From a virus, in the IMG/VR virus record IMGVR_UViG_3300025099_000045, positions 1 through 41,625 of that record: a stretch of 41,625 bases of DNA; one strand, given 5' to 3'. Below the pieces are notes generated by a model, which ran no database searches, was not told the origin of the DNA, and saw only the letters and a list, made by a program, of their open reading frames with translations. Below, in pieces: positions 1 through 16,670 of the stretch. Position 1 is the stretch's first letter, and the number at the start of each line of letters is the position of its first letter. A program made the position numbers and the translations under genes.

Positions 1-102
1 AACTTTTATTTCTAAAACTGTAAAAGTTCCTAATCTAAAACTTAATTCGTATTTTTCTTTTTTGTTCCCGGCGTCAAAACCGTTTATCCAATTCACTTTC
101 AT
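1..102 (-). CDS. Partial CDS, unknown function (3' end outside window)
   Basis: An open frame starts at an ATG that shares one base with the stop of the preceding outer-membrane protein gene (TAATG) and stays open for 34 codons to the window edge. The visible residues begin MKVNWINGFDAGNKKEKYEL and continue with alternating polar and hydrophobic residues that suggest beta strands. No family is recognised. The tight stop/start overlap matches other junctions in this operon, which is the main reason to believe it is a gene. It is probably translated by re-initiation after the upstream gene. Confidence 0.55.
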   Translation of the reverse strand, partial: MKVNWINGFDAGNKKEKYELSFRLGTFTVLEIKV

Positions 103-1199
103 TATCTTATTACATAATTAATTCCTAATTTAAAATCATACCACTCTCTATTCCAATATTTGTTATATTTACCTTCTGCAAATATACCTAATTGTTTATC
201 TATTTTTCTACCAAATATAATACCACCTGAGTAATCATACCATTGTTCTCCGTTGTTATAGTTGTGGTAAGAGAATTCATCTCCGTTATCATAGTGATAA
301 GGAAGTATATTTCCCCAGCTATGCAACCAATAATTCTTATCGTAGTAATAGTAATCAAAACCTATAACTACTGAATGCTGCATAATTCTACTTAATTCAT
401 TTCTCTTCCTAGTACTGTAATCAGATAGGACGGTAGGTATAACAACCTCTTTCCACACGTCAGAACTATTAGCTACAACGTTACCGCTTGGATCTCTATA
501 TTCACTGTTTTTAACATTAATAGTATAACCTTCTTGAATAGCTAAGTAAGTATAATGTAAATTACCATTATCTAAAACCCACTCTTCTAGTGGATCATAA
601 CCGTATGGTTCCGCCAATCGGTGCGCAGCTCCTATACTAAACGCTAAGTGTTTGTCTTTCTTAAATCTATATCTTTCTGATAATTCAAAATATTCTACAT
701 CAGCGAAACCATCTTTTAAATACTCTACCTTGGCAGCAAAGTAATTAACACACAAAGGATCTTCGCAATCATCTTCAGAACTATATCTAATAAAATGGTG
801 TTGGTCTACATAATCAATTCCTTGTTGTCTAGCGTAATCTATTTCAAATAAATATTCTACTCCTCTGATTTTACCAACAGTAGCAGCATCTGTATAATTA
901 GACTCCGTACCATCATAAAACGTTTGTGCTTTATTTTCATGACCAAATCTAGCTATTTTTCTAATACCTATAGTGATAGAATAATCATATGGAGTTTCTA
1001 TTGTCGATGTCTGTAGTCCATCTATAATCGAAAATTGTTTTACGTCAGATATCGATGTCCCTCCATTTACAGCTCCATATACTGTAGAAAACTTTAAATT
1101 ATCCTTTAGTATTTTTTCAATATCATATTCGTGTCCCTTGTAACTAAATTGTGAATAACTAAATAACGGTAGTAAAAGTAATATTAATATTTTTTTCAT
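102..1199 (-). CDS. Predicted exported outer-membrane beta-barrel protein
   Basis: This 365-residue protein starts with a clear signal peptide (MKKILILLLLPLFSYS, likely cleaved before Gln17). The mature part is rich in Tyr, Phe and Trp, with alternating strand-like segments. The last residues (about 352-365, YDFKLGINYVIR at the end) look like the amphipathic, aromatic final strand that ends outer-membrane barrels. There are no predicted helical membrane segments. I infer a barrel in the outer membrane of the infected host, not a virion protein. The start codon overlaps the stop of the preceding gene by four bases (ATGA). A role in superinfection exclusion, envelope change or lysis would fit but nothing in the sequence decides between them. 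The barrel assignment is from composition and C-terminal pattern only. Confidence 0.65.
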   Translation of the reverse strand: MKKILILLLLPLFSYSQFSYKGHEYDIEKILKDNLKFSTVYGAVNGGTSISDVKQFSIIDGLQTSTIETPYDYSITIGIRKIARFGHENKAQTFYDGTESNYTDAATVGKIRGVEYLFEIDYARQQGIDYVDQHHFIRYSSEDDCEDPLCVNYFAAKVEYLKDGFADVEYFELSERYRFKKDKHLAFSIGAAHRLAEPYGYDPLEEWVLDNGNLHYTYLAIQEGYTINVKNSEYRDPSGNVVANSSDVWKEVVIPTVLSDYSTRKRNELSRIMQHSVVIGFDYYYYDKNYWLHSWGNILPYHYDNGDEFSYHNYNNGEQWYDYSGGIIFGRKIDKQLGIFAEGKYNKYWNREWYDFKLGINYVIR

Positions 1200-1525
1200 T
1201 TCTTTGTTCCTAATTTAATTTTTACTCCAAGACTAGGACCTAATCTATATCCTTCTCCTGGATAATCATATTTTTTACTAGTGGATCCTCCGCCTTGAAC
1301 TCCAAGGGTGATTCCACCAAATTTAGTTGGTTTATATACACCTGCAAATCCACCACCATGACTTCCTTCTTTAGTAACAGTACCACTAGCACTAACTATA
1401 GGTTGTGCAGTTTTCTTTTGCTTCTTGGTTTTTAAACTTTTTTCTAACTTTGTTACAGTATCATCTTCATCCGTTTTAAAGGGAAAAGCGCTATTTTTAT
1501 ATTTTAATTTAAACGGTCCACTCAT
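1196..1525 (-). CDS. Small Lys/Gly-rich protein, unknown function
   Basis: This 109-residue protein lies between two exported-protein genes and overlaps both by four bases (ATGA at each end), so the three are likely translationally coupled. It has no signal peptide. Residues 1-50 are basic, beginning MSGPFKLKYKNSAFPFK, an N-terminus I associate with small proteins of marine Bacteroidota phages. Residues 50-109 are rich in Gly, Ser and Tyr with short strands (GGGFAGVYKP, GGITLGVQGGG, LGPSLGVKIKLG) that resemble barrel strands or a small beta structural protein. No family can be named. It could be a minor virion protein or a cytoplasmic partner of the exported cassette. Confidence 0.6.
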   Translation of the reverse strand: MSGPFKLKYKNSAFPFKTDEDDTVTKLEKSLKTKKQKKTAQPIVSASGTVTKEGSHGGGFAGVYKPTKFGGITLGVQGGGSTSKKYDYPGEGYRLGPSLGVKIKLGTKK

Positions 1526-3732
1526 TTTACAATTTTCTTTTCTACTGTTCCGTCACTATATATAAAGAACAATAATTGATTTTTAGTTATTTCAGCGGGT
1601 CTACCTAATATATCTGTTATCATTATTAAATTAGACATTCTTTTTGGTAACGGTCCAACCCAACTTCCTTCACAGTGATTATATGTTAGTTGACATATCT
1701 CATCCCATTCGTTTTCACAGCAATATTCATCTACGTCTATTACCCAAGCGTAACAAGGGTTGTTTAACCAATAAGGTGAACCAGGCCCAGTAACACAACC
1801 AGCATCATAGTTGCAACTGTTATCACTAACATTCGCTTCGCTATCATAGTTGTACGCATTTGGATCAATACATCCTTCAACCACAGCGACACATGAACCG
1901 TTTTCAGTATTAGCTGTTGAATCATAGTTAAGAGCACTACTGTCGGTACAACCATACACATAACTAATACAACTAAAATCTTCCGTATTGGCTTCGGGAT
2001 TGTAGTTAAGCATAGAAGGGTCAGTACAACCATAAACATAAGGCTCACAGTTACTAGGATTATATTCAGCATTTGCTAAGGGATTAAAATTAAACATCAT
2101 TGTATCTGTACATCCATAAACATAGGGAACACAAGTCCCATCGTCACAATTCGCAAGCGGACTATAATTAAACATCGTCGGATCTGTACAACCGTACAAA
2201 TATGCTATACACGTGTCGGGAGTGTTAGCTAGCGGATTATAGTTAAACGCTAAAGATTCCATACATCCATAAACGAATGGAATACACCCTCCGTTATCTA
2301 CATTCGCAGTGGAATCATAATTATAAGCAGTTGAATCCATGCATCCAAACGCAACCAAAACATTACAACTATCTTGTATATTAAAATCAACATAAACCCC
2401 GTTAGACGTGTCTATATGATATTCTAGATATGCAGGACTAATACATCCGGGAACATAATAACAAGTTTCCGAAGTATTAGCATTTAGATTATAGTTAAAC
2501 GCTGTTGAATCCATACAGCCCTCTACAATTTCTACGCATTCGTTACCACAATAAGTGGTACCTGCATAAGTAAAAAACGGTTGCATAAAAGGAGGAGCTA
2601 CGCTCAATACTGTATCCCCCATTGGATTTATTAAAGTAAACCCACACTCTAAAGCAGTGTTAGAAGCTTGAGCGCTCACGAAGAACTTAGCTTGCACTAG
2701 TTTAGGTGCGTTTAACTGAATCGTATAAGTTTGATTAAAACCACTAGTCATCATAAACTCAGTGGTATCATCTTGGTATATTTCTAATTTACTTCCTACC
2801 CAACCATTACCTACAAGATCGTGTAGTATAAGAGTGTAGTCACAACTATCTATGTAGTCCATAGTGTTTGCGGTAGAATCGTAATTAAACATTGTACTAT
2901 CTGTACAACCATGTATCTTTAAAGTAGCACAGCTACTATCTGTTACGGTAGCTGATGGATTGTACTCTAAATAGCTATCATCCATACAGCCTGGAATAGG
3001 AGGTGGTGGCGTACAACTATCAGAGGTAAACGCGTGCGTGGAATCTGTCCCAAAATTTGGTACGGTACCATATACCAAGGTATCGCCACATTGCGTCACA
3101 TAATAAGATCCGTCATTTCCTCCCCACAAACTTCCATTTAAACCATCTCCGTATGAATCGTATATCGTAAATTCAAAATTTCCTTTGTCAATACAGATTG
3201 GTATAAATTGTGGTTCGTAATCAGGAGCGTTTGTATATGGTCCTCCTGAAAATAAAACAGTACCATTAGTATCTTTTATGTCCCATGTTGTTTCGGATTG
3301 GAACTGATCCAGGTTAATATTTACCATTGCTGGTACACAATTTCCTACCGGTGGTGGTGGATTAGGCATACATTGCGGCACTGTTCTTGTGGAATATAAA
3401 CCACTACTAAAACTAACTGTTGGTTTGTTTACTATAGTATCTTCGCAAACGACAACGTAATAACTACCATTCATACCATCTCCGTACGTATCTTTCATTA
3501 AAAATACAACTGTTGTTATTGTGTTAGCTATATAACAAGTGTCTAAATGATTAGTATTAGAAGAAGTGTAATAACCAGGTGGAACATTAGCTATGGTGTC
3601 TCCATATAAACTATCTGCAAATAATACCCAATAAGTTTCAGAGGGATAAGAATCTGTTGTAACGCTTATAACACATTCTTTTTGTCCAAATGTAAACAGC
3701 GGTAATAATAATAGTAGTAGTATTTTCTTCAT
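1522..3732 (-). CDS. Exported Cys-repeat surface protein with T9SS-like C-terminal signal
   Basis: This 736-residue protein has an N-terminal signal peptide (MKKILLLLLLPLFTFG, cleavage before Gln17). Next come domains with the calcium-loop-like motifs DTYGDGMNGS, DSYGDGLNGS and DLVGNGWVGS, typical of secreted Bacteroidota proteins. Eleven Cys repeats of the form GC-[TM]-D-x3-x-N-Y-[ND]-x2-A-N-x3-x-C follow, the last seven nearly in tandem at about 30 residues. A CCENEWDEIC module comes next (about 665-690). The last ~37 residues contain ITDILGRP and FIYSDGTVEKKIVK, which resemble a short type A T9SS sorting domain. About 40 cysteines suggest disulfides and an extracellular site. The likely fate is Sec export to the periplasm, then T9SS transfer to the host surface. 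The gene starts directly after the stop of the thioredoxin-like gene. It could be an adhesin or a receptor-masking protein; its role is unproven. Confidence 0.75.
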   Translation of the reverse strand: MKKILLLLLLPLFTFGQKECVISVTTDSYPSETYWVLFADSLYGDTIANVPPGYYTSSNTNHLDTCYIANTITTVVFLMKDTYGDGMNGSYYVVVCEDTIVNKPTVSFSSGLYSTRTVPQCMPNPPPPVGNCVPAMVNINLDQFQSETTWDIKDTNGTVLFSGGPYTNAPDYEPQFIPICIDKGNFEFTIYDSYGDGLNGSLWGGNDGSYYVTQCGDTLVYGTVPNFGTDSTHAFTSDSCTPPPPIPGCMDDSYLEYNPSATVTDSSCATLKIHGCTDSTMFNYDSTANTMDYIDSCDYTLILHDLVGNGWVGSKLEIYQDDTTEFMMTSGFNQTYTIQLNAPKLVQAKFFVSAQASNTALECGFTLINPMGDTVLSVAPPFMQPFFTYAGTTYCGNECVEIVEGCMDSTAFNYNLNANTSETCYYVPGCISPAYLEYHIDTSNGVYVDFNIQDSCNVLVAFGCMDSTAYNYDSTANVDNGGCIPFVYGCMESLAFNYNPLANTPDTCIAYLYGCTDPTMFNYSPLANCDDGTCVPYVYGCTDTMMFNFNPLANAEYNPSNCEPYVYGCTDPSMLNYNPEANTEDFSCISYVYGCTDSSALNYDSTANTENGSCVAVVEGCIDPNAYNYDSEANVSDNSCNYDAGCVTGPGSPYWLNNPCYAWVIDVDEYCCENEWDEICQLTYNHCEGSWVGPLPKRMSNLIMITDILGRPAEITKNQLLFFIYSDGTVEKKIVK
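1525..1635 (-). other. Type IX secretion C-terminal sorting signal (predicted)
   Basis: The last 37 codons of the Cys-repeat protein encode a strand-turn-strand pattern with D-x-L-G-R, a central Asn, an aromatic/Ile strand, and a Lys-rich end (EKKIVK). Known T9SS type A tails show the same order: a D-x-x-G-R strand, an Asn, a G-x-Y-type strand and a final Lys/hydrophobic strand. The usual G-x-Y is here replaced by IYSDG, so this is a short or variant form. Confidence 0.55.
1813..2991 (-). repeat. Eleven GC[TM]D...NYD...AN...C cysteine repeats
   Basis: The coding strand carries eleven related units starting with Gly-Cys and ending with Cys, of roughly 21-29 residues each. Seven units from about 1813 to 2355 follow one another at near-regular spacing, joined by short VYGC-type linkers. 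Two lie near 2480-2520 and 2400-2460 (the second degenerate), and two near 2880-2991, on the N-terminal side of a non-repeat domain. DNA identity between units is only partial, so this is an old or diversified array and not a fresh tandem duplication. The same motif occurs three times at the C-terminus of the 3021-residue tail protein. Confidence 0.9.
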
Positions 3733-4086
3733 TTAAAAATCGCTCATTAATTGTTCGTCTATTTCTTCTTGCACCTCTTCTCTTGTTGCTACCATTTTAA
3801 AACTTAAATCAGCTTGAAATCTAGCTACCTCTTCGTCATCTTTAAATATTATAATAGTAGGTACAACCGCTATTTTATGCTTTTTCTGTAACTCTACATC
3901 TTTACTTACGTCTATATAAGAATATGTTTGAACATCTTCTAGGTCGTGAGCCCAATCTACTTTGTTCGCCTCGTTCCAACTAGCGTTAAATACAGCCACT
4001 TGTATTTGACCGTAAGACGTTCCAGCCACTATCATAAATATAATAATTAATAAATAAGCTGTCCATATCTTGTAAATTGGTTTCAT
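3733..4086 (-). CDS. Exported thioredoxin-fold protein lacking cysteines
   Basis: This 117-residue protein has an N-terminal hydrophobic export signal (about residues 9-26, with likely cleavage in TSYG/Q). The mature part follows the thioredoxin pattern: a strand (QVAVFNASW), a helix, a second strand ending in YIDVSKD, then VVPTIIIF with the cis-Pro, and a final strand with KDDEEVARF. Where the active-site WCxxC should be, the sequence is WNEAN, and the whole protein has no cysteine. It cannot do thiol chemistry, so a binding or chaperone-like role in the periplasm is more likely. It lies immediately upstream of a gene for a protein with about 40 cysteines, and its start overlaps the preceding gene by four bases. 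Confidence 0.7.
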   Translation of the reverse strand: MKPIYKIWTAYLLIIIFMIVAGTSYGQIQVAVFNASWNEANKVDWAHDLEDVQTYSYIDVSKDVELQKKHKIAVVPTIIIFKDDEEVARFQADLSFKMVATREEVQEEIDEQLMSDF

Positions 4087-4406
4087 CTATTATAAATTTT
4101 ATCTTCAATTTTTTCTAGAGTTTTTTTCATTTCCTCTATATCTGATTGAGTTGTCAATATTGTCTGTCTAATCATTTGATCTTTCATATCGAACTCCATC
4201 CTTGTAACCTCAGCATCAGGTATTTCTTCTAAAATTTGTTCTTTTAGAATATTAACATCTACTTGCACTGGTTTTTCTTTAGCCTCTTGTATTTCAGCCA
4301 TAAGAGAATACCACCCACCTACAACCACAAATATACCAGCGGCTATCATCCCCATTGTTTTGATGCTCATTTTGAACGCAGTGTCCTCGTTTAATTCTTT
4401 AGCCAT
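4083..4406 (-). CDS. Small membrane protein with coiled coil; holin candidate
   Basis: This 107-residue protein has a short charged N-terminus, one strong transmembrane helix (about residues 17-35, MGMIAAGIFVVVGGWYSLM), and a long charged helical tail (about 38-107) with heptad-like spacing. Small proteins of this shape are common near the ends of phage structural operons, where they can be holins, holin partners or spanin-like parts, but no defining motif is present. It follows the giant virion gene after a 45-base gap and overlaps the next gene by four bases. I favour a lysis-timing or envelope role because all clear neighbours downstream are envelope-directed. Confidence 0.5.
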   Translation of the reverse strand: MAKELNEDTAFKMSIKTMGMIAAGIFVVVGGWYSLMAEIQEAKEKPVQVDVNILKEQILEEIPDAEVTRMEFDMKDQMIRQTILTTQSDIEEMKKTLEKIEDKIYNR

Positions 4407-4451: not shown

Positions 4452-7400
4452 TTAATCGTGGTAATAGCAATAGCCACTTTTAGAACTCGTCATCATACCA
4501 CAACGCTCCTTCTTCTTTTTACTTACTTGCTTCATTTTTATACATCGCGTCTTCTTTCCACTTTTGTTTTGATCAACCTTCTCATGAATAGTACAATAAG
4601 ATTGACCAGGCTTTATAGTGGTTTTACATCTTTTACCACTCCTGCTTACCGCAGCACATTTTATATCTTTTTTACCGTCTTTCTTTTCTTGCTCTTGTTT
4701 CTTTATATTATCTTCTATTACTTTCTTCTCTTCTTCTTCTTTTTTCTTTTCTCTTATTTCTTTTTTAACTTTTGCTTTTTCTTTACTGATTATTTTCTTT
4801 TCTTCTTTAACCTCTTCTTTCGCCTCTATAACTACCTCTCTTTTACCTAGACCTAAACTCCATCTATTTATACCTGTAGCCAAAGCTATTCTTTGCCATG
4901 TTTCATAATCTGAGTTCGAAGCGTCTCTAAGATTATTTATTTTTTGTAAAAGTCTATCAGCTGGAATATTGAACACCGCAGAAAGAGCATTCGCTGACAT
5001 TGACAGAAGCGGATTATCTATGTGAAAGCCAATTTTTGGTATAACATCTTTGTTATATTCCCAATCCTTTAAAACACCTCTTCTAATTTTTCTAATTTTA
5101 GATCCAATTGGAGGTGACACGCTTAATAAATCATATATAACCTCGTCATAATCAGCGTTGTAACCTTTTTTGTTTTGGGTTTGAAATTCTATTACTGCGT
5201 TTTTTATAGCAGACGGAACGGCGCCTAAAGTACCCATACCTCTCATGTAACTATCTATTATGGTCTCGTAAAACCTAGCGTCTTTCTTTTCGTTAAAGCC
5301 GCTTTCTACTTTTTCTAAATCATCTTCGTCTTTAGCAAACATTGCGTTGGCTAAGAATGAGAATATCGCCGTTTGCGCTATGCCGTAATAAACGGCACTC
5401 ATTAAATTTTCAGCGGTGTTACCTCTTCTATTTACTATATCTTGAATACGCCTCTTGTGTCTTCTAAACATCTGCATAGGCGTGTTAGCGAACATAAGTA
5501 TTGGTCTACCAATAGCGCTTCTTTGTTGTGCTGATATAAAATCAGGACGAGATGATTGTTGTGTTGCTTCTGTTATTTCCGTGAACTCTATCCAAGCTTG
5601 TTTTTCAGCTTGTGCTTTAGACATACCTTGCTTCATCAAACTTCTTATTTTATTTCTATAAAACGTCGCTCCACCGGAAGCAATAGCAAAACTATCTGCG
5701 TATTTTGTAGGTATGAATCCTTTTTCTAATAAGTAAGCTAAAGCTCTTTCTGCTTTATTACTTTTGCCAGACAAAGCGCTTATCAATTCATTAGCTTCTA
5801 TATTTATTTTTAATCCAGATCTTCTTTGAAGCAACATATCTGAGTTAAATATTTTAGCAAAATCTTTCCAGTACTGTGGTTGGTTAGCGAAAGCTTGCGC
5901 GGCTCTAAATGGATTATTAAACGTACCGTTCATATAATTGATAGAAGATATAGTTTGTAGCGCCGCTGATTTAACATTCCAAAACATAATAGCACCACCA
6001 GATCTATTTATCCAATTCATCCAACTATTCGTTATGCCATCCGTTCCATAAGGTCTATTTTGACCTGTTTCCATAGCCCACAACATCGATTCTATATGTT
6101 CTCTATGTCTAGATCCATAAATAGCTTCTATTTTATTCATGTTTTCCCCTACTAACTTGCCTCCCTCCCATGTACCAAATATAGCTTCTCTATTTTCCTT
6201 AAATTCTGTTAAGAACAAATCCCTATAATGATTATCTGCTAATTTTTGTAAATCTCCAGTTATAGTCTCGGCCAACCAGTAATCTTTTGGTTTTGCATAC
6301 CCCTCCGGAAGCTTAGTTATTTTCGACACACCTTCGGCAAAAGCTATTAGTTGTTCATTATTTTTAACGAAATTATCTAGTAACTTAACATCTCTTTTAG
6401 ACATACCAGGTATTTCGTAACCAGCTTTGTTCCAAAGATAAGTTCTTATAGCGTTTTCAACAGTATAAACACCTTCCCCAACCTTATCACGTAGTTGCTT
6501 TGTAACCTCTGGCATAGATTTCCTTAACACGCTATAATCATTGGACATAGTTTGTTTTGTAGAATGGATTTCATTGTAAGCTCTATTATAAGGTTTCTGT
6601 AATTTATCTTCAAAGAATTTTTTATGCGCTTCTCCCTTTTTACCTCTACCAGCGAAGGAGTAAGTAACTAATCCTTGGAAATCTTCCATACCTGTGCTTC
6701 CCCACCATTTCCACACGCCTTTTCTTCTTCCAATTTCTTTTGCCTTACCTTCGCTAAACTTTTTGAAACTTTCTACGCCTTTTACTTCTTCTAATATTTT
6801 ATTAAAATCCCTACTTAAATCTACTTTACTAAACATTCTGTTATCTCGAGGCAACCCTTTAATGTCAGGATCTACTTTACGTAATTTATCAAAGTCAACC
6901 CTCAATTTACCATCAACTCTTTTCATGACGTCCATCAATTCAAGTTCACGAGGCGTTTTAAATCCTATTTCTGTAATCTTTTCATTAACCAAGGCTTTCC
7001 CAAACCAAACGTTTGTGTTCCCATCTATTATCTCGAGTGCTACTAAATCACCTTGTTTTTCCCAATTAAGCTCTCTTCCATTATTAATAGAATTAGTTTT
7101 ACCGTCTGGTCCAATTGTACGAGTTTCTATTTCCTTACCATTCTTAAAATCCGTAATCCTTTTTATTTTTCCATTGGCCCTGTAAATCTTTTCTTTAACC
7201 GTTATACCGTTAACTTTGTTTTCTACAACTTTAGTTCCTTCAGGATGAAAATAATAACCCTCAGCGTCTAAACTTCTTTCAACGTGGTATTCTGTTGTAA
7301 CAGTTTTCTTATCCTTACTAGTAGTTCTAGTTTCCATAACAAACTCTTGAACCTTACCTCCGCCTATAGGAACTAACTCTACTGTTCTAGTGACTCTACC

Positions 7401-10400
7401 TTCTTTAATTCTTATAACAGGAGCATCTGTAGCGTTGTCCATTCTATCCCAATACTGTCCGTTAGCTTTAAATCCTATTAATTTACCGTTTTGAAACACC
7501 ATACTTTTTGGACCATCTGAATAATGTTCCCATGTCTTACGGCTTCCTTCTGTTAATTTACCATCTTTCTTCTGCGCAAGACACCACGGATTAGAATTTT
7601 CTCCAAAATGAGTATCCATAACTTTTCTAACAGCAAGTTGCCCCTCCTTAGTGTTCTCAACAACGTGTTCTGTAATACCGTGTTTTTTGTTTGTAACCGT
7701 GCCTTTAGCAAACTCTTTTACGGTATTAGGATCTGTAGGTTTCGCTTTAGTTTTACCAGCGTATTTTTCTATAATCTGATTAGGATTTGTATAAGAGAAT
7801 ATATCCTCTTTATATTTTTCAGCTAATTCTACAGCGTCTTTTACTTTGTACCCATCTTCTCTTAACTTTATATTACTCGTAGCTAACCATTTAGTTGTTA
7901 TTCTCTCGTATTTTCTTTTCTTACCATCGGGAATATTTAAATTGTCTACAAAGGTAAACATATTGTCTATGGTCTTAGAAACTAGTCCTTCTTTAACTAA
8001 ATCAAGACGTAATTTAGATATAGTTTTTTCGTATTCTGCTCTATGAACTTTAGAAAATTGTACGTTTTTATAGTTGTCAGGAGAATCCAATTTGTCTACG
8101 TCTTTAACTTCGTTTAAAGACTTTTCTTTTAATGTTTTAGAATCAACTTTTTCATATCCAGTTTTAGCTATCTGTACTTTGGATTTGATATCTAATTGAT
8201 CTAAAACGTCCTTAACAGCTTTAACGTTCTGCATAGCGTCGTCCGCAAAATACATATCATTATATCCTTCTGCAAACTTCTCTAACATCCACATTGCCTT
8301 GGCCTCACCAGTGCTGTTACCTAACCCCGTTATATTCTTTAAAGGAATATTTAATCCTTGGGATTTTAAAAACTCGTGTATAGCAACTTGAGCCGCCGGT
8401 GGTCTAGCCGTTAATACATACGTATCTTTTGTACCGAATTTTTTAGCCCTATTTAATGCCTTTTTAAAGAAGGGTCCTTGAGCTCCTTCTGTAACGATAT
8501 TAAATTCTGAAAAATCAAACTCAGCCCCTTGTTCTTTAAGTAAAGATCCTTTGCTAGCAAACTCACCAGCGTTCAATCTCCCTTTGACATATCCTTTGGT
8601 AAAACTATCTAACTTACCAACTAAATCAGATGGCATTGGATCGCCTTGTTTTAAATTATCCGTGTTCACTTCTGCAAATCGTTCTCCAAATAATTCTTGA
8701 AATCCTTTTTTATTTTCCATCACGGCTTTATGGTTACGTTCAACTATAAAGTCTTTTAATGATCTTTCTTTTCTAGCTTTATTCCTCGCTAACGCAACGT
8801 CTAAAGAAGTCTCAACAAACATCATTTGAACATCATACCCAGCTTCTTTAAATTTCCTAACTTGTGCGCTCATAGACACAGAGCTAGCACCAGTTCCATC
8901 TACTATTATGCCATCTCCCTTACCTTGGAATTTCGTTTGTTTACGTTGAGCTATATCTCTAGCCTCCCATTGTAAACTACCCCATTTGCTAGCTTGCTCT
9001 GGCGTGAAATCCCTCATATCTTTTGGAAGTCCACTGTTTTTAACTAACCACTCAAGTGATATATCTTGATTAACTATTTTAAATCCTTGTTTTTCTAAAC
9101 CTAATTGTTTTATAACGTTTGATTTACCACTACCAGCACCACCCGCCATAAATATGACCTTTCTCTTAGGTTGTGGTTTACCCGATGGATTCGGTAAGGT
9201 ATATCTAACACCAGATTTAGTATAAGCTAGAGTGTCATCGAAGTCCCAAGTACTCATTCCTTTTTCCTTCTTGTATTTACTTCTACCCAACTCTATAGCT
9301 TTGTCGATAGTAATCAAATCCCTTATCGCTTTTTTAACATTGACTCTAGAGTGAGATTTTGGACCAACAGCATTTCGTATTGATTCGTTAGCTTTTTTAA
9401 GTATAAGGTTATTCTCTTTTACATTAGTAGCATCAACAGTGTAAGCTTCTGGTCCCCATTGTGATTTCTCTAAAGTTTCTAACACTCCTTTCATTTGTTC
9501 TAAAGTATACTCACTAGCTAACACGTCTCCAACGCGTCTACCTTTATTTGGTCCAGATATATAAATTTGGTTTGCTTCAGACCCCTTCCTAGTCAATACA
9601 TTTAATATAGCGTTAGTAGTCAAATTAGCCTTTCCTTCCAACGCGTAAGCTTCACTGTAACTAGTTCTACCCTTAGCGTCGTTTTTCAACTGTAGAGTTT
9701 TTGGAACTAGAGATTGTGTCGATGTTTCCATAAATACGTCTAGATCTTTCAAGAACTCCTCGCTTATTATTGGCTCGCCTGTTTCTTTATCAAATTTAGC
9801 TTTATTTTCAACAAAAACTTGCATTTGATGTTCGTTATTATTTAAAAGTTGTCTTTCGTGTTCCCAATGTAACTCGTCTTTCGTTTTATATTCTTTTAAT
9901 GTACCTTTTTTATTCTCAAACGTATACGTTCCAGGTTTACTACCTTCCCAAGCAATATGTTCTAAGTTGTAGTTCATAGCTTTTTCTATACCTGTAGAAT
10001 GCTCAGATTGCATAGCGTTATGTACCATTACGTTTTCTAAAGCTATTTGCTCGCCTAAATCTCTAGTTTCTATATCAAAAGCTTTTTTCCTAGCAGTAAG
10101 AAAATCTTTAGCTAGCGTTTCGTTTGCTTTTACAGTAGCCTCGTATCCAGAAGACTTTTGATTATAAGAGAATTTACCTCTAACAAAGTCAACTAACATC
10201 ATGTCTGCTTCAGACTGTTTTAGTTTTCCTCTATCGACAAGCTTCTTTAAACGTTTGGCCTCAGTATTTATTTGTCTTTTTAGAGTACCAAAATTACCAG
10301 GAACAAAACACTTGTCATATCTACCGTCATATACATTACCCTTATCTATAATTCTTTCTTTCCCAAAGTAACTATCTAATGACGCTACGGAATTCTCTCT

Positions 10401-13400
10401 TGCATCTTTAGAAATTATAGTTTTGTTTATACTCTTTCCTTCGTTTATAATTTCTCTTCTAGCTCTACTATTCCAACCAAAAGTAGTTAACAACGCGGCT
10501 AAAGCATTTTTAGGTATATGCTTATAGTGAACAGGCATATTGTTTAAAACTAAAACATTATTATCTTTTCTTTTTTGAATTAAATCAAGAGAGTTATTTA
10601 CATTAGCAAGAGATACGTTTTCTGAATTAACGTTATATTTTTCAGCTAATTGCTTAGCGCTTTTTGCTTCTTCTTTTTCGAAACGTTCGGATTCCTTAGG
10701 TGTTTCGTAAAAGTCTTTTATACTTTGTAGTTTAGTAACTTTTGTTATTAATTCTAATCCTTGAGCTTCTACGAGTCCGTTTTCTAAAATCTCTCTGATA
10801 GCTGGATTTTCTTTTCCAAAAACATCATCAATCATTTTGAAATCATAAAACTCACCAGTTTGTTGACGTCTAATAATATCAGAAATTCTTTGAGCTTCAG
10901 TGCTACTAATATCTATTATAGCTTCAGTCATTTTTTCACGGAATCCTTTTATTTCCGTTACATTACTAAAGGCTTTGTGAGGTTTGCCGTCTGCTAACTT
11001 CAACATAGTAGATTCAAAAACTCTACCCTCTGCATCTAGTAATTCTCTAATAGGTTGGCTAGTAAGTATTTTGCTAGTTAAATAAAGCAGTCCTTTTGTC
11101 TCTTCTCCAACTCCTTTTTTAATATCTTTTTCTTTTCCTCCAGCGGCTTCAAAACTCTTTTTACTAGTATATACTTTTCCGTTTATTTCGTATACGTTCC
11201 TAGGATTAGTTTTAAAAGTACCGTTAGACATTATACCAACAGATTCTCTAAGATCAGATATTACTTTAGATGATTCTGATTTTTTACGGTGTGCAAAAAA
11301 GTTTTCTTTTGATCTAATTGTTCTTAACTTATCCTTTCCAGTGGTAACTAAAGTCCCAGCTTTTTCTTGTTTAGTGTAAGCTACCTTCTGTATTTCACGT
11401 GGCACTCCAGCGGATTCAGCAGGAACTTGAGTAGTTTTAGTTATAGGTTGGCCAAGTTTGTCTACGTCTCTATAGTCAACAGGTTTTGTTATAAAACCTT
11501 CTGGTAAAACGTGACCAAACATAGTTGGTATAAACTTATCTAACATTGGTTGAACAGCCTCTATATCTTGCTTATCTATATTAGCTCCCTTCTTTATTTT
11601 TTCCGCAAGCACTTCGTGTATAAACTTTCCTTTGTTCTGTCCTTTTTTATACGTACGTCCTCCAGTAAATATTTTTACTGTTTCGGCTAGCATTGCAACC
11701 TCTAGAGTTTTGTAGTTCTTACCTTCTGTAGCTTTTTTAAGTTTCTCTATATTTGTACTACCGTCTTTGTTTTTAAATTGATTTTGAATAGCGTCGTAAA
11801 TTTCCTTAACTTGGTTACCTTTACCTGTGTTTACCTCACCAAAAGCTTCGTGTAGTTTTAGTTTTTCAGACTCTAATTGTATACGATCATTTATTTCTCT
11901 AGACGTCTCAGCTTGAATCATTTCAAAAGCATCGAGATCCATTTTTCTTTCAACGCCTTCTTCAGATAAAGATGTTTCTTTTTTATCTCTAACTAAATCC
12001 TTAGCATTTCTAAATACGTTTAAAAGTTTTTGATTTCCGAAAGTGTTAACCCAACCAGAGAAACCAGGATACTTACCTTCTTTTTTGTATTTAGAAATTT
12101 CTGTAATATCAAAGTTTCTCATGTGCCCACCTTGTTTGATTTGATTAGCATTAAGCCCGGCGAGCTCTTGTACTACTTGACTAGCAAAAGCTCTTTCATC
12201 TAAAATTTTACCTCCAGATTTTCTGTTAAACTCACTAGTCTTCTTTAACATAACGTCAAAGATATTGTCAGCTTTTTCTAAATAAGTATCAAACCATCTT
12301 CCCTCCATAGGGTTGCTATCAGGTCCTTTCCATTCTTTATTCCATATTTCTCCAACTTCTTTTTTTGTATATTTATTTTTATCAGTACCCTCTATCTTTT
12401 TATTTAATAGCTCTTTATAGTTTCCCTCGGCAGCCTCGTTTATCTTATCCATTTTAGCTTTTACCTCTGCGGAAATAGGAACTTTACTAAACGACGAATA
12501 AGCTCCAGCTGCTAACTCGGGATTTCTCTTCATAAAGTCTTTCATCTGCCACTTGCTAACACCTCTATTCGACGCATCATATAAGGATTCTAACATGTTT
12601 TGTAGACTAGTAGCGTCTTCTACAGAGTATTCTTTTCCCTTTCCGATATTTGGAAAAACCTTGTTTATATAAGGCATAAAAGTATTTTGAATCTTTTGAG
12701 CGGTACTTCTATCAAGCTTTATCTCTTTATTCTTCAAAGCTTCTACATACGACGTTAAATATTCCTCGTAGTATTCTTCCTTGGGAACTTTTATTTCTAT
12801 TGGTTTACCAGTTTTTGGATCTATAAGTCTTTGGCTAGTCTTAGTAGCGTAGTTCTTTTTTATTCTATCTTCCAATACTTTTCTAGCATTAGGATTTGAT
12901 TTTTCTAAATTTTTTAAAAATTTATCTATAATAACTCTACCCTCTTTAGTTACCACATACTTTCCGTCCGCTCGTTTTTCCTTCAAAACATCTCTCAATA
13001 TATAATGAACCACCTCGTGTATACCAGTACCCAACGTTAAGGCTTTGGCCGCTGTTTCTGGATTGACAATTATTCTATCTGGTTGACCTTTTTTTCCTCT
13101 TATGTGAACACCAGCCGTACCCTCAGATCCTTTACCAGCTAATCTTTCGTACACTTGTTCAACGGTTTCAATTACTTCTCCTTTTTTGTTTTTAGTTTCT
13201 TTAGCTATTTCAAATTCAGCGCCTAGATCTTTGGCTATAGATTCTGCTATAATTAACTCTTCCGTAACTCTCTTTTTAAAAGCAGCTTCTAACGATTCAA
13301 CAACCTCTAAGTGTTTCTTGTCTAATCCCTCAGTGGCTTTTTCTATTACCTTTCCTTCTTTGTTTTTAACCTCTTTACTACCGTTTATTTCCTTTTCTAG

Positions 13401-16400
13401 TATTTTAATCCTAGTGTCATTTTCTCCCTTCTTATTGTTCTTTTTTAATCTGTCTAATTCACTCTTCTTTTTAAGTAATTCAACGGTTTGTTCAATAAAT
13501 TTATGCTGTTCTTTTTCGGTTTTAAATAAAATTTTATGCGACTTAACGTTTTCAACTACACTTTTGTAAAACTCCCTTTGGCTTTCCATAGTTTCCCTAA
13601 GTTTAGGATAACTTTGTCCAAACTCTACTTGTAGTTTCGCTATGTAATATTCAAATTGAGTGTCTGTCATATTTGCAAAATCAACAACGTCTTTACCGTT
13701 TAACTCCTTCCCCATTTGTATCTTTTTCTGTAATCTAAATGTGAGCTTGTCTGTTTCTTTTTGCTTTTTCTTATCTTTAGCTATCAACTCCTTAGCTTTA
13801 ACTAAATCGTTACGGAACTGCATGTCCGCAACAGACGTTTTAATTTCTTTTAACTCTAAATCTAATTTTTCTTTGAGTTGTTTTTCTTTTTTTAAAGCTT
13901 TTTTATCTTTTTTGTTTAGTTCTTCTTTGTTTTTTGTTTTTTCTTTAGCTTCGTTAAGATCTTCTTCTATTTTTTTATATTCTTTCTGGTATCTATCTCT
14001 AGCTTCAGTTTCTTTTTTAGCACCGGCGTTATCTATTTCATTAGGATCAGCTACTTTTCGCGGAGATTCTTTAATACCTAGAATCTTAGATGCCTTACTT
14101 ACTTTAAAAACATTTATTTTCATGTTTTCGATGTCCTTAGCTACTGCTTTCATAGTACCACTATTAGGACCAAGAAGATTGAGTGTTAACATCCCTATAT
14201 AGTCACTAACCATATGTTTTGCTGATTCGTAGTATACTTCATCTCTATATTCTTGTTCTGAACTAAATCCTTCTTCTTCCCATTTAGAAAAGTCAACTTG
14301 AAGCCAACTGTCACCACTAAACACTTTAGCGATCTCCATAGATCCAACCCCACTAACAGCTCCTAAATGAGCGCTGAATACCTTGTCTAGAGTTTTTATC
14401 TTTTCTACTTTTTCCATCAACGAAATTCCATACTTAGTAGTATATAATTTCTGTATTATTTTTTTAGAAAGTTCATTACCAACTCCAAGACCAAAAGCAA
14501 ATTGCCAGTTAAATGATTCTTCCAGCCCTCCTTTTCCAGGATTATATACCATTGGATCCATATCAAAAAGTAAACCTCCAACTTGATCGGCTCCAGCAAG
14601 TACAACTAACTCTTCAGTACCAGCAACGAAAAGACTTGAAACAAAATTCCATGTTTTACTTTTACTTCCCATTTGAAGAATATTTCTAAAAGCGTTTCCA
14701 AAAGCAGTTATCTGCGCGCCAGTTAACTTTTTAGTTATAATCACAGAAGCTACAAGAGGCGCTATATCAACCACAAAATCTCTACCACCTTCTAAGACAT
14801 CTCTAAGATCCACCTCGTGCCCAAACCAAGTTCCTAAACTCGCGTACTCACTACCATCTCTTTTAATTCCTAACCCCTTCTCTGTTTTTTGTATATTTAA
14901 AATATCACCAAAATTTTGTACATTCCAATCCACTTCCTCGTCAGCTGTCATGCCCGTAAAGTCAGTAGTCCATCGCTCGGTAAAAAAGTTTCCTTCGGGA
15001 AGTAAGGTTGGATCCTGGTTTAAATCTAAAGCCCTACTCAATGACTTAAACTTACCAAGAGCATTGTTGTAAGTTTCATAATTTTGATTATCAGCGGTGA
15101 ATTTTCTTAATCCAGGTTGTATCTGTCCAGTTTCAATAATTTTATTTAAATTCGCCTCAAGGTCTTCTTTTCCTATAGCCATCACAACATCATATAACTC
15201 TCCTAATAACGTTTCACTATCAAACATCACCAGTTCGGGATCCTCACTCATTAGTTGTTGTACAGCTGCCACTACCTCGTATGCTGCGGCCTTTCTCTGT
15301 AATTGCAACATATCGGGTTTATTGTCTAAAGCTAATATCCTAGCATTCTCTTCGTCCTCCGCAGATATAGTACCGATCTTACTTTGAATATATTCTGCGT
15401 ATTCTTCTTTTGAGGTAAACGTTTCTCCGTTATCACCAATAGCATCCTTCCAATTATCAAGATTAACCTCTTCTTCAGGAACGTCTTCCCAGTTTATCCA
15501 CTTCCCATTTTTGTTGTAAAGTGTAACGTACCCTAATTCTTCATTCTTAGCAACTCCTCCTTCGAAATCTCCTGATTCAAACAAATCGTAAGTTTCTTTA
15601 TGTGTTCCTGTGTAATACGTTGAAGCTACTTCTTGAATGTTTTCAAGCTCTACTGCCATTCCGTTTTTCACCAAGTTTTCCTCTTCTATCTTAACTGCTT
15701 TTCTGGAGTTATTTATATTTTTTATTTGTGATCTGTCTACATATTCACTAAAGAATCTATATTTAAATTTTCCGTGATTTGGATCTTCAAAAGATTCATT
15801 CTCAGCTGCTCCTTGAAAATCTGAACCAAAAACCCAATCGAAAACCATCACAGCTTTTTCGTCCGCATCAGTACCGTAATCTTCCATATAAGCTCCGTAA
15901 ATATATTTGTTGTTTGCGATACTACCAAAATCCGGCATTTCTACGCCTCTAAGAAACTTTCCCCATCCCACGGCATCTCCCCAAGCCTGAGTAGCAAAGG
16001 CGTTGTCTCCTAATTCCTCAGCTAAAATTGTGGCTGGATCGTCGGTTCCGTATTTTTCTACAAGTTCGTTTTTAAAGACGTTTAACTCTGCCTCCATGCC
16101 TTGTTCGACTTCCATAGCATGAAATTGATCTAGAACAGCTGAACCTCCACCCCAACCACCTCCACTTGCCCCTACAGTGTTATCTACTTTTTGATATTCG
16201 TATTCCTTCAGATTATATAGATTAGAATTGTAATTCTCTATCAATTCATTTACTTCTTCTAGATCTAACTCATCTGATTCTGATTCAACAGTCTCCCACG
16301 GAAAAGCGTTTCCATATAGATCGGTTTCTGCGTCAGCGTGAGACACTGGAACCGATTCACCGTTTGGCCCAAAGTAAGCCCCGCCTCCTGTGGGTCCAGC

Positions 16401-16670
16401 TTGATATCTCCATCCCGCGGGAGGACCAAAAGAACTAAGATCTAATTTGTTCATTAATTCATCTGATTCAGCTATTTCAGATTCCGATAACTTTTCTTGT
16501 GTGCTTGTTTTATCATAATTTTTAACATCAACTTCATCGTGATCGTCATCATGCTGCTCTATAAACGCATCAACATCACCTTCAAAACCATGAAGTTCCT
16601 TGTGGGCTTCGTGGGATATTGGTCCTGTGTTTTCTACTTTATGTTTTAACGGGGATTTAGTCTTAGTCAT
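4452..16670 (-). CDS. Giant polyvalent virion (ejected cargo) protein, 4072 residues
   Basis: This is one uninterrupted frame and probably an internal virion protein sent into the host with the genome. Features in order: an acidic Gly-rich N-terminus; hydrophobic segments at about 625-700; a Lys/Glu coiled coil at about 877-950; a metallopeptidase-like HEVVH at 1218-1222; a HAD phosphatase nucleophile motif DFDDT at 2476-2480; a P-loop GGAGSGKS at 2510-2517 in a zeta-toxin-like kinase; the remaining HAD motifs (LTARP near 2755, YFADD near 2808); a domain with NPWCLAQ near 3027; MORN-like repeats at about 3137-3195; a region with GRPILMFANTPMQMFRRHKR near 3720-3745; a hydrophobic stretch at 3755-3777; a Lys/Glu helix at about 3943-3997; and two Cys/His zinc motifs at 4005-4071. 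The start overlaps the stop of the preceding gene by four bases. Enzyme activities are predictions from motifs only. Confidence 0.85.
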   Translation of the reverse strand: MTKTKSPLKHKVENTGPISHEAHKELHGFEGDVDAFIEQHDDDHDEVDVKNYDKTSTQEKLSESEIAESDELMNKLDLSSFGPPAGWRYQAGPTGGGAYFGPNGESVPVSHADAETDLYGNAFPWETVESESDELDLEEVNELIENYNSNLYNLKEYEYQKVDNTVGASGGGWGGGSAVLDQFHAMEVEQGMEAELNVFKNELVEKYGTDDPATILAEELGDNAFATQAWGDAVGWGKFLRGVEMPDFGSIANNKYIYGAYMEDYGTDADEKAVMVFDWVFGSDFQGAAENESFEDPNHGKFKYRFFSEYVDRSQIKNINNSRKAVKIEEENLVKNGMAVELENIQEVASTYYTGTHKETYDLFESGDFEGGVAKNEELGYVTLYNKNGKWINWEDVPEEEVNLDNWKDAIGDNGETFTSKEEYAEYIQSKIGTISAEDEENARILALDNKPDMLQLQRKAAAYEVVAAVQQLMSEDPELVMFDSETLLGELYDVVMAIGKEDLEANLNKIIETGQIQPGLRKFTADNQNYETYNNALGKFKSLSRALDLNQDPTLLPEGNFFTERWTTDFTGMTADEEVDWNVQNFGDILNIQKTEKGLGIKRDGSEYASLGTWFGHEVDLRDVLEGGRDFVVDIAPLVASVIITKKLTGAQITAFGNAFRNILQMGSKSKTWNFVSSLFVAGTEELVVLAGADQVGGLLFDMDPMVYNPGKGGLEESFNWQFAFGLGVGNELSKKIIQKLYTTKYGISLMEKVEKIKTLDKVFSAHLGAVSGVGSMEIAKVFSGDSWLQVDFSKWEEEGFSSEQEYRDEVYYESAKHMVSDYIGMLTLNLLGPNSGTMKAVAKDIENMKINVFKVSKASKILGIKESPRKVADPNEIDNAGAKKETEARDRYQKEYKKIEEDLNEAKEKTKNKEELNKKDKKALKKEKQLKEKLDLELKEIKTSVADMQFRNDLVKAKELIAKDKKKQKETDKLTFRLQKKIQMGKELNGKDVVDFANMTDTQFEYYIAKLQVEFGQSYPKLRETMESQREFYKSVVENVKSHKILFKTEKEQHKFIEQTVELLKKKSELDRLKKNNKKGENDTRIKILEKEINGSKEVKNKEGKVIEKATEGLDKKHLEVVESLEAAFKKRVTEELIIAESIAKDLGAEFEIAKETKNKKGEVIETVEQVYERLAGKGSEGTAGVHIRGKKGQPDRIIVNPETAAKALTLGTGIHEVVHYILRDVLKEKRADGKYVVTKEGRVIIDKFLKNLEKSNPNARKVLEDRIKKNYATKTSQRLIDPKTGKPIEIKVPKEEYYEEYLTSYVEALKNKEIKLDRSTAQKIQNTFMPYINKVFPNIGKGKEYSVEDATSLQNMLESLYDASNRGVSKWQMKDFMKRNPELAAGAYSSFSKVPISAEVKAKMDKINEAAEGNYKELLNKKIEGTDKNKYTKKEVGEIWNKEWKGPDSNPMEGRWFDTYLEKADNIFDVMLKKTSEFNRKSGGKILDERAFASQVVQELAGLNANQIKQGGHMRNFDITEISKYKKEGKYPGFSGWVNTFGNQKLLNVFRNAKDLVRDKKETSLSEEGVERKMDLDAFEMIQAETSREINDRIQLESEKLKLHEAFGEVNTGKGNQVKEIYDAIQNQFKNKDGSTNIEKLKKATEGKNYKTLEVAMLAETVKIFTGGRTYKKGQNKGKFIHEVLAEKIKKGANIDKQDIEAVQPMLDKFIPTMFGHVLPEGFITKPVDYRDVDKLGQPITKTTQVPAESAGVPREIQKVAYTKQEKAGTLVTTGKDKLRTIRSKENFFAHRKKSESSKVISDLRESVGIMSNGTFKTNPRNVYEINGKVYTSKKSFEAAGGKEKDIKKGVGEETKGLLYLTSKILTSQPIRELLDAEGRVFESTMLKLADGKPHKAFSNVTEIKGFREKMTEAIIDISSTEAQRISDIIRRQQTGEFYDFKMIDDVFGKENPAIREILENGLVEAQGLELITKVTKLQSIKDFYETPKESERFEKEEAKSAKQLAEKYNVNSENVSLANVNNSLDLIQKRKDNNVLVLNNMPVHYKHIPKNALAALLTTFGWNSRARREIINEGKSINKTIISKDARENSVASLDSYFGKERIIDKGNVYDGRYDKCFVPGNFGTLKRQINTEAKRLKKLVDRGKLKQSEADMMLVDFVRGKFSYNQKSSGYEATVKANETLAKDFLTARKKAFDIETRDLGEQIALENVMVHNAMQSEHSTGIEKAMNYNLEHIAWEGSKPGTYTFENKKGTLKEYKTKDELHWEHERQLLNNNEHQMQVFVENKAKFDKETGEPIISEEFLKDLDVFMETSTQSLVPKTLQLKNDAKGRTSYSEAYALEGKANLTTNAILNVLTRKGSEANQIYISGPNKGRRVGDVLASEYTLEQMKGVLETLEKSQWGPEAYTVDATNVKENNLILKKANESIRNAVGPKSHSRVNVKKAIRDLITIDKAIELGRSKYKKEKGMSTWDFDDTLAYTKSGVRYTLPNPSGKPQPKRKVIFMAGGAGSGKSNVIKQLGLEKQGFKIVNQDISLEWLVKNSGLPKDMRDFTPEQASKWGSLQWEARDIAQRKQTKFQGKGDGIIVDGTGASSVSMSAQVRKFKEAGYDVQMMFVETSLDVALARNKARKERSLKDFIVERNHKAVMENKKGFQELFGERFAEVNTDNLKQGDPMPSDLVGKLDSFTKGYVKGRLNAGEFASKGSLLKEQGAEFDFSEFNIVTEGAQGPFFKKALNRAKKFGTKDTYVLTARPPAAQVAIHEFLKSQGLNIPLKNITGLGNSTGEAKAMWMLEKFAEGYNDMYFADDAMQNVKAVKDVLDQLDIKSKVQIAKTGYEKVDSKTLKEKSLNEVKDVDKLDSPDNYKNVQFSKVHRAEYEKTISKLRLDLVKEGLVSKTIDNMFTFVDNLNIPDGKKRKYERITTKWLATSNIKLREDGYKVKDAVELAEKYKEDIFSYTNPNQIIEKYAGKTKAKPTDPNTVKEFAKGTVTNKKHGITEHVVENTKEGQLAVRKVMDTHFGENSNPWCLAQKKDGKLTEGSRKTWEHYSDGPKSMVFQNGKLIGFKANGQYWDRMDNATDAPVIRIKEGRVTRTVELVPIGGGKVQEFVMETRTTSKDKKTVTTEYHVERSLDAEGYYFHPEGTKVVENKVNGITVKEKIYRANGKIKRITDFKNGKEIETRTIGPDGKTNSINNGRELNWEKQGDLVALEIIDGNTNVWFGKALVNEKITEIGFKTPRELELMDVMKRVDGKLRVDFDKLRKVDPDIKGLPRDNRMFSKVDLSRDFNKILEEVKGVESFKKFSEGKAKEIGRRKGVWKWWGSTGMEDFQGLVTYSFAGRGKKGEAHKKFFEDKLQKPYNRAYNEIHSTKQTMSNDYSVLRKSMPEVTKQLRDKVGEGVYTVENAIRTYLWNKAGYEIPGMSKRDVKLLDNFVKNNEQLIAFAEGVSKITKLPEGYAKPKDYWLAETITGDLQKLADNHYRDLFLTEFKENREAIFGTWEGGKLVGENMNKIEAIYGSRHREHIESMLWAMETGQNRPYGTDGITNSWMNWINRSGGAIMFWNVKSAALQTISSINYMNGTFNNPFRAAQAFANQPQYWKDFAKIFNSDMLLQRRSGLKINIEANELISALSGKSNKAERALAYLLEKGFIPTKYADSFAIASGGATFYRNKIRSLMKQGMSKAQAEKQAWIEFTEITEATQQSSRPDFISAQQRSAIGRPILMFANTPMQMFRRHKRRIQDIVNRRGNTAENLMSAVYYGIAQTAIFSFLANAMFAKDEDDLEKVESGFNEKKDARFYETIIDSYMRGMGTLGAVPSAIKNAVIEFQTQNKKGYNADYDEVIYDLLSVSPPIGSKIRKIRRGVLKDWEYNKDVIPKIGFHIDNPLLSMSANALSAVFNIPADRLLQKINNLRDASNSDYETWQRIALATGINRWSLGLGKREVVIEAKEEVKEEKKIISKEKAKVKKEIREKKKEEEEKKVIEDNIKKQEQEKKDGKKDIKCAAVSRSGKRCKTTIKPGQSYCTIHEKVDQNKSGKKTRCIKMKQVSKKKKERCGMMTSSKSGYCYYHD
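4455..4658 (-). other. Two C-terminal C-x(9-13)-C-x10-C-x2-H zinc motifs in the giant protein
   Basis: The last 68 residues hold two similar units: C-x9-C-x10-C-x2-H (residues 4005-4029) and C-x13-C-x10-C-x2-H (ending at His4071). The pattern G-x-R/K-C plus G-x-Y-C-x2-H resembles small zinc-binding knuckles found in phage and bacterial proteins of unknown role. They follow a basic coiled coil, which suggests nucleic-acid or protein binding at the extreme C-terminus. Confidence 0.65.
8238..9245 (-). other. HAD phosphatase domain split by a P-loop (zeta-toxin-like) kinase
   Basis: Within the giant protein, HAD motif I (D2476-F-D-D-T) is followed after about 30 residues by a Walker A motif (GGAGSGKS, Lys2516). 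The kinase part continues with IVNQDIS, a DGIIVDGTG strand, and an Arg-rich lid (ARNKARKERS). About 240 residues after the Walker motif the HAD fold resumes with the motif II/III region (TYVLTARP) and motif IV (YFADDAMQNV). The kinase therefore sits where a HAD cap would be. Families with both activities repair nucleic-acid ends (T4 Pnkp type), but there the domains are side by side; zeta toxins phosphorylate a sugar nucleotide. Confidence 0.75.

Follow-up and report, generated by a model that had tools for sequence, protein, structure and literature searches.

A horizontally exchanged cassette of predicted envelope proteins in crAss-like phages, with a putative type IX secretion cargo

Gene layout, conservation and transfer of the cassette

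The window, i.e. the whole stretch of DNA analysed here (41,625 nucleotides), is a 41.6-kb virus record representing a fragment of a crAss-like phage. Terminase, portal and muzzle families were all matched: the terminase falls into phrog_6681 (1.9e-170) and the portal into phrog_6547 (6e-145) by PHROG matching, and a 3021-aa protein carries the muzzle C-terminal domain PF25729 crAss_MUZ_C (32.7 bits against a cut-off of 27). Among named phages, the closest terminases are those of an environmental podovirus from Manatee Spring (64%) and of Flavobacterium elemoviruses (46%); the latter are not assigned to Crassvirales by their record. The genes and features considered below are as follows.

4452-16670, minus strand: late gene encoding a 4072-aa protein, upstream of TM107
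4083..4406, minus strand: TM107, a 107-aa ORF with a single hydrophobic stretch close to the N-terminus and a C-terminal half that is charged and coiled-coil-like; first cassette gene here
3733..4086, minus strand: TRX, 117 aa, exported redox-dead thioredoxin-fold protein
4009..4086, minus strand: TRX signal peptide, residues 1-26, predicted cleavage YG/Q
3964..3978, minus strand: WNEAN in place of WCxxC, TRX residues 37-41, with N38 and N41 invariant in the alignment
1522..3732, minus strand: CYS736 (CYS), 736 aa, exported modular Cys-rich protein and predicted cargo of the type IX secretion system (T9SS)
3685..3732, minus strand: CYS signal peptide, residues 1-16, predicted cleavage FG/Q, with Q17 invariant in the family alignment
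1813..2910, minus strand: nine GC[TMI]x..N[YF]..AN..C repeats of CYS, residues 275-640
1663..1806, minus strand: CCENxWDxxC domain of CYS ahead of the tail, residues 643-690, with invariant alignment columns
1525..1662, minus strand: short C-terminal tail of CYS, residues 691-736, predicted T9SS sorting signal
1196..1525, minus strand: SM109, 109 aa, basic, without signal peptide, between CYS and BAR
102..1199, minus strand: BAR, 365 aa, exported outer-membrane beta-barrel by model and alignment
1152..1199, minus strand: BAR signal peptide, residues 1-16, predicted cleavage YS/Q

The original prediction described zero- to four-base junctions both among these genes and towards the late structural genes. 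The former is correct, as TM107 and TRX overlap by 4 nt, TRX and CYS abut with 0 nt between them, and both CYS/SM109 and SM109/BAR overlap by 4 nt. The latter is not: TM107 adjoins the large late gene without overlap, across a gap of 45 nt. The 4072-aa product of that gene contains a Zeta_toxin/AAA_33 P-loop kinase-like domain over cut-off (residues 2499-2653, ~8712-9176, minus strand).

In IMG/VR, relatives of the 736-aa protein were found in 45 loci and relatives of the 365-aa protein in 488 stretches, the best 80 of which were retained. TM107, TRX, CYS and BAR occur together in more than 100 related viral loci, and the suggested search for the same genes in related phage contigs thus had a positive outcome. 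Three of the proteins do carry export leaders, as originally described for a trio, but the conserved unit comprises four genes and includes the upstream 107-aa membrane/coiled-coil protein. The gene order is BAR-TM107-TRX-CYS in 58 loci and TM107-TRX-CYS-BAR in 20 loci, where loci rather than contigs are counted and some contigs give two. Most other patterns reflect a contig end inside the cassette, a second CYS-like giant gene, or loss of TM107 to an overlapping gene call. TM107 immediately precedes TRX in 102 loci with junctions of -35 to +12 nt, and CYS-BAR junctions measure -4 nt (16 loci) or -1 nt; SM109 is an inconstant member. An alignment of 41 TM107 members shows conservation of MAKELNEDTxFKxSIKT and EVTRMEFDMKDQMIRQTI. 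A second small exported family was noted near the cassette in relatives, mostly on the opposite strand: L004:14686-15081 (minus strand) and 23 related genes encode proteins of ~130 aa with the leader ASAQ, the C-terminal end GLSYKF and no Pfam match, which from their sequence look like small outer-membrane barrels.

The carriers are crAss-like phages, uncultured for the most part and apparently marine, the term marine resting on a few sources (Maricaulis and Nitrosopelagicus bins and a match to a marine single-cell virus) rather than on habitat records. Three cassette phage contigs lie inside MAGs called Nitrosopelagicus (an archaeon) and Maricaulis (an alphaproteobacterium), and these ill-fitting bins are probably binning errors. 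A tblastn search of the phage collection with the window copy and the consensus of BAR gave no match, nor did a BAR profile, in a weak search run without a positive control, against NC_055852, MW202828, FPSV-F12, phi14:2, ProJPt-Bp1, cr114_1 and crAss001. TIGR04183 tails were likewise absent from the named crAss-like phages examined. With neither BAR nor these tails in the named phages covered, the cassette is not a feature of crAss-like phages at large.

The cassette is located at the end of the late genes, and in relatives its neighbourhood includes Peptidase_M15_3, GTA_holin_3TM-like (below cut-off) and DUF5675 genes. This location is compatible with a lysis module in which TM107 would act like a spanin, TRX and BAR would weaken or breach the outer membrane at the end of infection, and CYS would be released with the debris. 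The layout of TM107, with an N-terminal transmembrane segment and a charged helical C-terminal half, is that of an i-spanin, and one of the 41 TM107 members matches an Rz-like spanin PHROG (5.8e-4). However, TM107 otherwise matches a scatter of unrelated PHROG families, as is typical of coiled coils, and the cassette has no conserved small lipoprotein that could serve as the o-spanin. Moreover, lysis does not require a protein of 700-1000 aa equipped with a sorting tail, but every contig of sufficient length has kept CYS. We thus regard a lysis module as rather unlikely.

The distribution of the cassette was compared to that of the terminase. Relative to the window, the terminases of 50 cassette-bearing records show 81-94% identity in 26 cases, 42% in one and 23-27% in 15, whereas eight gave no match. 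The 15 distant terminases fall into two size classes, both still of the phrog_6681/6547 type; one class is nearest to gut Suoliviridae (43%), the other is ~29% identical to its nearest relative. Median BAR identities for pairs of the lineages A, B and C are 69% (AA), 68% (AB), 71% (AC), 78% (BB), 76% (BC) and 77% (CC). Hence, BAR is as similar between terminase lineages (68-76%) as within them (69-78%), although the terminases are only ~25% identical. In the BAR tree the lineages are intermixed, with eight changes, several of which are forced by strongly supported branches. Equal identity across and within lineages and the mixed tree demonstrate horizontal movement: the cassette is swapped between phage lineages. 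It should be noted that the loci were picked by likeness to the window, and the range of lineages may be wider than observed.

Export leaders, the thioredoxin-like protein and the barrel

Signal peptides with the cleavage sites FG/Q, YS/Q and YG/Q had been predicted for CYS, BAR and TRX, and a simple leader-plus-Q score was applied to these families. It was positive for 85 of 96 TRX, 87 of 98 CYS and 102 of 102 BAR homologues, compared to none of 84 for TM107 and 19 of 759 for other phage ORFs, 15 of these 19 belonging to the ~130-aa ASAQ family. Within the window, the 117-, 736- and 365-aa proteins scored positive, and the 107- and 109-aa proteins as well as the structural genes tested scored negative. 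In TRX, Q27 is 99% conserved. A glutamine directly after the leader is known as the Q-rule and is specific to Bacteroidota (PMC5837995). The three signal peptides are therefore a conserved property of their families, and the proposed export to the envelope is backed by these leaders in combination with the barrel model described below. Some BAR relatives contain a lipobox-like cysteine followed by KKCC(S/G)Q; three of them have leaders such as LVSCAAPKKCCGQ, in which the lipobox-like Cys is accompanied by a later Q site. Judged by this arrangement, processing of these relatives may involve signal peptidase II instead of I.

The assignment of a thioredoxin fold to TRX is upheld by PF00085, which matches 50 of 51 homologues (best 5.5e-8), and by matches of the TRX profile to thioredoxins in the PDB; the window protein itself stays below the gathering cut-off (E 0.0019). 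The CxxC redox centre is absent. The active site reads W-N-x-x-N, with both cysteines replaced by Asn in 99% of 97 sequences, while the cis-Pro is 100% conserved and the C-terminus LMSDF is nearly invariant. Due to this replacement TRX is no usual dithiol oxidoreductase, and a role as an oxidoreductase that folds the Cys-rich protein was ruled out. A structural or chaperone-like role is inferred instead. The 123-kb contig L034 (2595-2921, minus strand) features a separate normal thioredoxin with WCGPC in addition to the redox-dead cassette TRX.

The structure prediction suggested for the barrel was performed with AlphaFold2 on 52 sequences. The model (pLDDT 75, pTM 0.68) comprises 14 strands beyond residue 38 as well as a helix-containing insert of 76 residues, and its top PDB matches are transmembrane beta-barrels, including OmpG, CymA and NanC/KdgM, in agreement with the outer-membrane barrel originally proposed. 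After realignment OmpG and CymA lead with Z 11.6-11.7. As whole-model TM-scores are low, the class is supported but no specific family. The single T9SS translocon chain among the fold matches listed, 6h3i_F, ranks below OmpG and CymA (Z 9.7, 184 residues), and PorP/SprF and PorV models were not among the matches listed when 52 BAR members were compared with NCBIfam at E<=1. In a viral structure library, the 342-aa protein A0A516LKJ4 shows the BAR fold (Foldseek E 1.2e-23, 23% identity). The family consensus of the C-terminal amphipathic strand is YDFKxGVNYIIF, the window copy ending in YVIR. Mean column identity amounts to 72% for BAR in the 52-member alignment versus 42% for CYS, and this high sequence conservation suggests a constant partner rather than a variable receptor.

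The presence of the porins OmpG and CymA among the best structural matches raises the question of whether BAR is a nutrient channel, i.e. an auxiliary metabolic gene whose neighbours are carried along. The evidence in its favour is the structural class, and the association of BAR with TM107, TRX and CYS persists across phage lineages. In the cellular genome collection, BAR was found only on four MAG contigs, which have phage-like neighbours or are short. On this basis, BAR as a captured host porin was rejected, and a nutrient channel appears hardly likely at all.

The Cys-rich protein and its C-terminal tail

CYS consists of the leader, beta-rich N-terminal domains, GC repeats, the CCENxWD domain and the tail. 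The N-terminal domains are exchanged among homologues, some of which contain a MAM domain, and the number of GCxD repeats ranges from 4 to 18 per homologue. The structure model of CYS is poor (pTM 0.28), and the structure search accordingly gave low-confidence matches only. A GC[TM]D repeat is also located at the C-terminus of the leaderless 3021-aa muzzle-type protein of the window (20339-21007, minus strand). Similar GC repeats were observed in relatives, within giant proteins that lack a leader, and in a protein of a cyanophage whose annotation is virion structural protein.

Taken by itself, this occurrence of the repeat would fit a scenario in which the cassette proteins are virion components, e.g. 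for decoration or receptor binding, their leaders being either fortuitous or cleaved off by a protease of the phage. Still, the Q leaders are conserved in three unrelated families and absent from the structural genes tested, and a beta-barrel with a C-terminal strand of the outer-membrane protein type is unexpected in a virion. A virion location of the cassette proteins is therefore very unlikely.

Two types of tail were distinguished among 75 complete CYS homologues. The majority (65) share the short tail of the window protein, with the consensus LIxITDLLGRPxK..KN..L.YIYxDGTVEKK.IK, and [TV]DxLGR is kept in 50 of 50 short tails. The other ten feature a canonical YPNPT-type (type A) tail in the same place. 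Seven of these ten were scanned, and all seven exceeded the cut-offs of TIGR04183 (31-41 bits, cut-off 23) and PF18962 (35-46 bits, cut-off 27). The profile of the YPNPT tails matches solved chains of T9SS C-terminal domains (CTDs), e.g. 8glj_D and 8glk_D; type A C-terminal domains over cut-off are present in 8 of 50 related records, and a YPNPT-type tail was also found on two MAG-binned phage contigs. Trees derived from BAR and from CYS minus the tail both indicate that the tail type switches at least 5-6 times, as expected of interchangeable signals. In RgpB of Porphyromonas, the CTD contains two essential elements, the Lb3b4 loop FDMNGRR and the C-terminal strand C-t. (PMC11285876). At the level of motifs, TDxLGR of the short tail is comparable to FDMNGR and the terminal K-rich strand resembles the C-t. 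motif (PMC11285876).

The short tail is likewise encoded in Bacteroidota chromosomes, with matches of up to 58 bits; it was found in two of 296 genomes from the whole phylum and in seven of 150 from a single order. By sequence reading, the host proteins concerned are GH16-like, esterase-like and kelch-like, and most have a leader ending in Q. Six of the short-tail host genomes were checked; all six encode SprA, and type A tail matches number from 43 to at least 150 per genome. At ten of the host loci, the short tail without YPNP forms the end of secreted enzymes of T9SS-positive Bacteroidota. From its sequence context, it may represent a class of T9SS sorting tail not covered by present models: a type without YPNP, overlooked by the curated models on the phage protein and present on secreted enzymes of the host.

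The original description of a T9SS-like tail on CYS captured a real conserved element, though the window protein misses the curated models: its tail gave no match to TIGR04183 or PF18962 at E<=1 in Pfam and NCBIfam. In addition, hhalign does not connect the short and the canonical tails, aligning only the last 17 columns with a probability of 3%. Both results would suit export of CYS without the T9SS, the short tail being the end of the last domain and the protein residing in the periplasm or the outer membrane. Conversely, ten homologues carry a canonical type A tail at exactly this place, and on unrelated secreted proteins encoded by T9SS-positive host genomes the short tail forms a C-terminal module of its own, making this explanation improbable. 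The proposed T9SS route thus lacks a TIGR04183 match for the window protein itself; however, homologues over cut-off in the same slot and the short tail on secreted host proteins make T9SS routing likely. On these sequence grounds, we consider routing through the T9SS highly probable for the CYS family and, with somewhat less assurance, probable for the CYS protein of the window.

Proposed role and relation to known systems

The data are described with good, albeit not full, confidence by a cassette of envelope proteins that crAss-like phages of Bacteroidota exchange horizontally, with export via Sec and passage of CYS through the T9SS of the host. Leaders, barrel class, redox-dead fold, synteny, tail exchange and lineage transfer were computed, and we infer localisation and T9SS use. 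After Sec export, TRX, CYS and BAR would be cleaved by signal peptidase I at Q. TRX would stay in the periplasm and BAR would insert into the outer membrane, whereas the host T9SS would use the C-terminal tail of CYS to carry this protein across the outer membrane onto the surface of infected cells. TM107 is expected to reside in the inner membrane, its coiled-coil half being probably periplasmic. BAR may serve as the outer-membrane partner of CYS, with TRX assisting in the periplasm and TM107 at the inner membrane. As each envelope layer would have its own protein and the genes are linked, a joint assembly is suggested.

As to the purpose of this export, the cassette could remodel the host cell surface at a late stage of infection, most likely blocking adsorption of further phages or progeny. 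This assignment is tentative. Surface remodelling is favoured over lysis due to the large T9SS cargo, which has no evident use in lysis. As GC repeats are found both in CYS and in the muzzle-type protein, the infected cell would display a virion-borne module. Sharing of the repeat would be in line with receptor masking, although the repeat may simply serve as a stalk in both proteins. The barrel is present on hundreds of environmental viral contigs, and a surface change of infected Bacteroidota by the cassette may consequently be common.

A more specific proposal is that BAR acts as a dedicated T9SS shuttle or anchor for CYS, i.e. as a phage SprF for SprB, with TRX and TM107 completing an envelope-spanning assembly. 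We consider this possible but doubtful. If true, the virus would bring its own adaptor, redirect a secretion machine of the host and cover infected cells with a module also present on its virion. In the known systems, T9SS type B cargo needs a dedicated, 14-stranded barrel that is often encoded next door, as for SprB-SprF and PG1035-PorP (PMC9143113, PMC12618676). The overlap of CYS and BAR by 4 nt in 16 loci is reminiscent of these pairs. Unlike PorP/SprF, however, BAR shows no sequence match to PorP/SprF or PorV models, and in contrast to type B cargo the tails of CYS are short or of type A; moreover, BAR adjoins TM107 more often than CYS.

Phage-encoded barrels are known in the form of outer-membrane proteins of the Lom, OmpX and porin kind, which may alter the host surface. 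No sequence relation between these proteins and BAR was found, and BAR differs in belonging to a multi-gene envelope cassette. Proteins with the Bacteroidota-specific Q leader have been described in phages of Porphyromonas gingivalis (PMC10367356); these are different phages, the functions of the proteins are unknown and the T9SS is not mentioned there. Phage proteins destined for a host T9SS were originally considered unusual, but such cargo was already reported in 2019-2020 (PMC6949934, PMC7468147). In 2019, T9SS sorting domains were reported on BACON proteins near the head genes of crAss-like phages; these contain BACON rather than GC repeats, and no barrel/Trx/TM cassette was noted with them (PMC6949934). 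In 2020, genes with T9SS type A sorting domains were reported in Cryophage, and use of the host system was proposed, perhaps for superinfection exclusion or competition (PMC7468147). Cryophage features three variable genes in one phage, encoding two enzymes and one PA14 protein (PMC7468147), whereas a single conserved syntenic cassette is found here across lineages, mostly with a short tail that curated models miss. No report of this cassette was found in the open literature, subscription journals lying outside the search.
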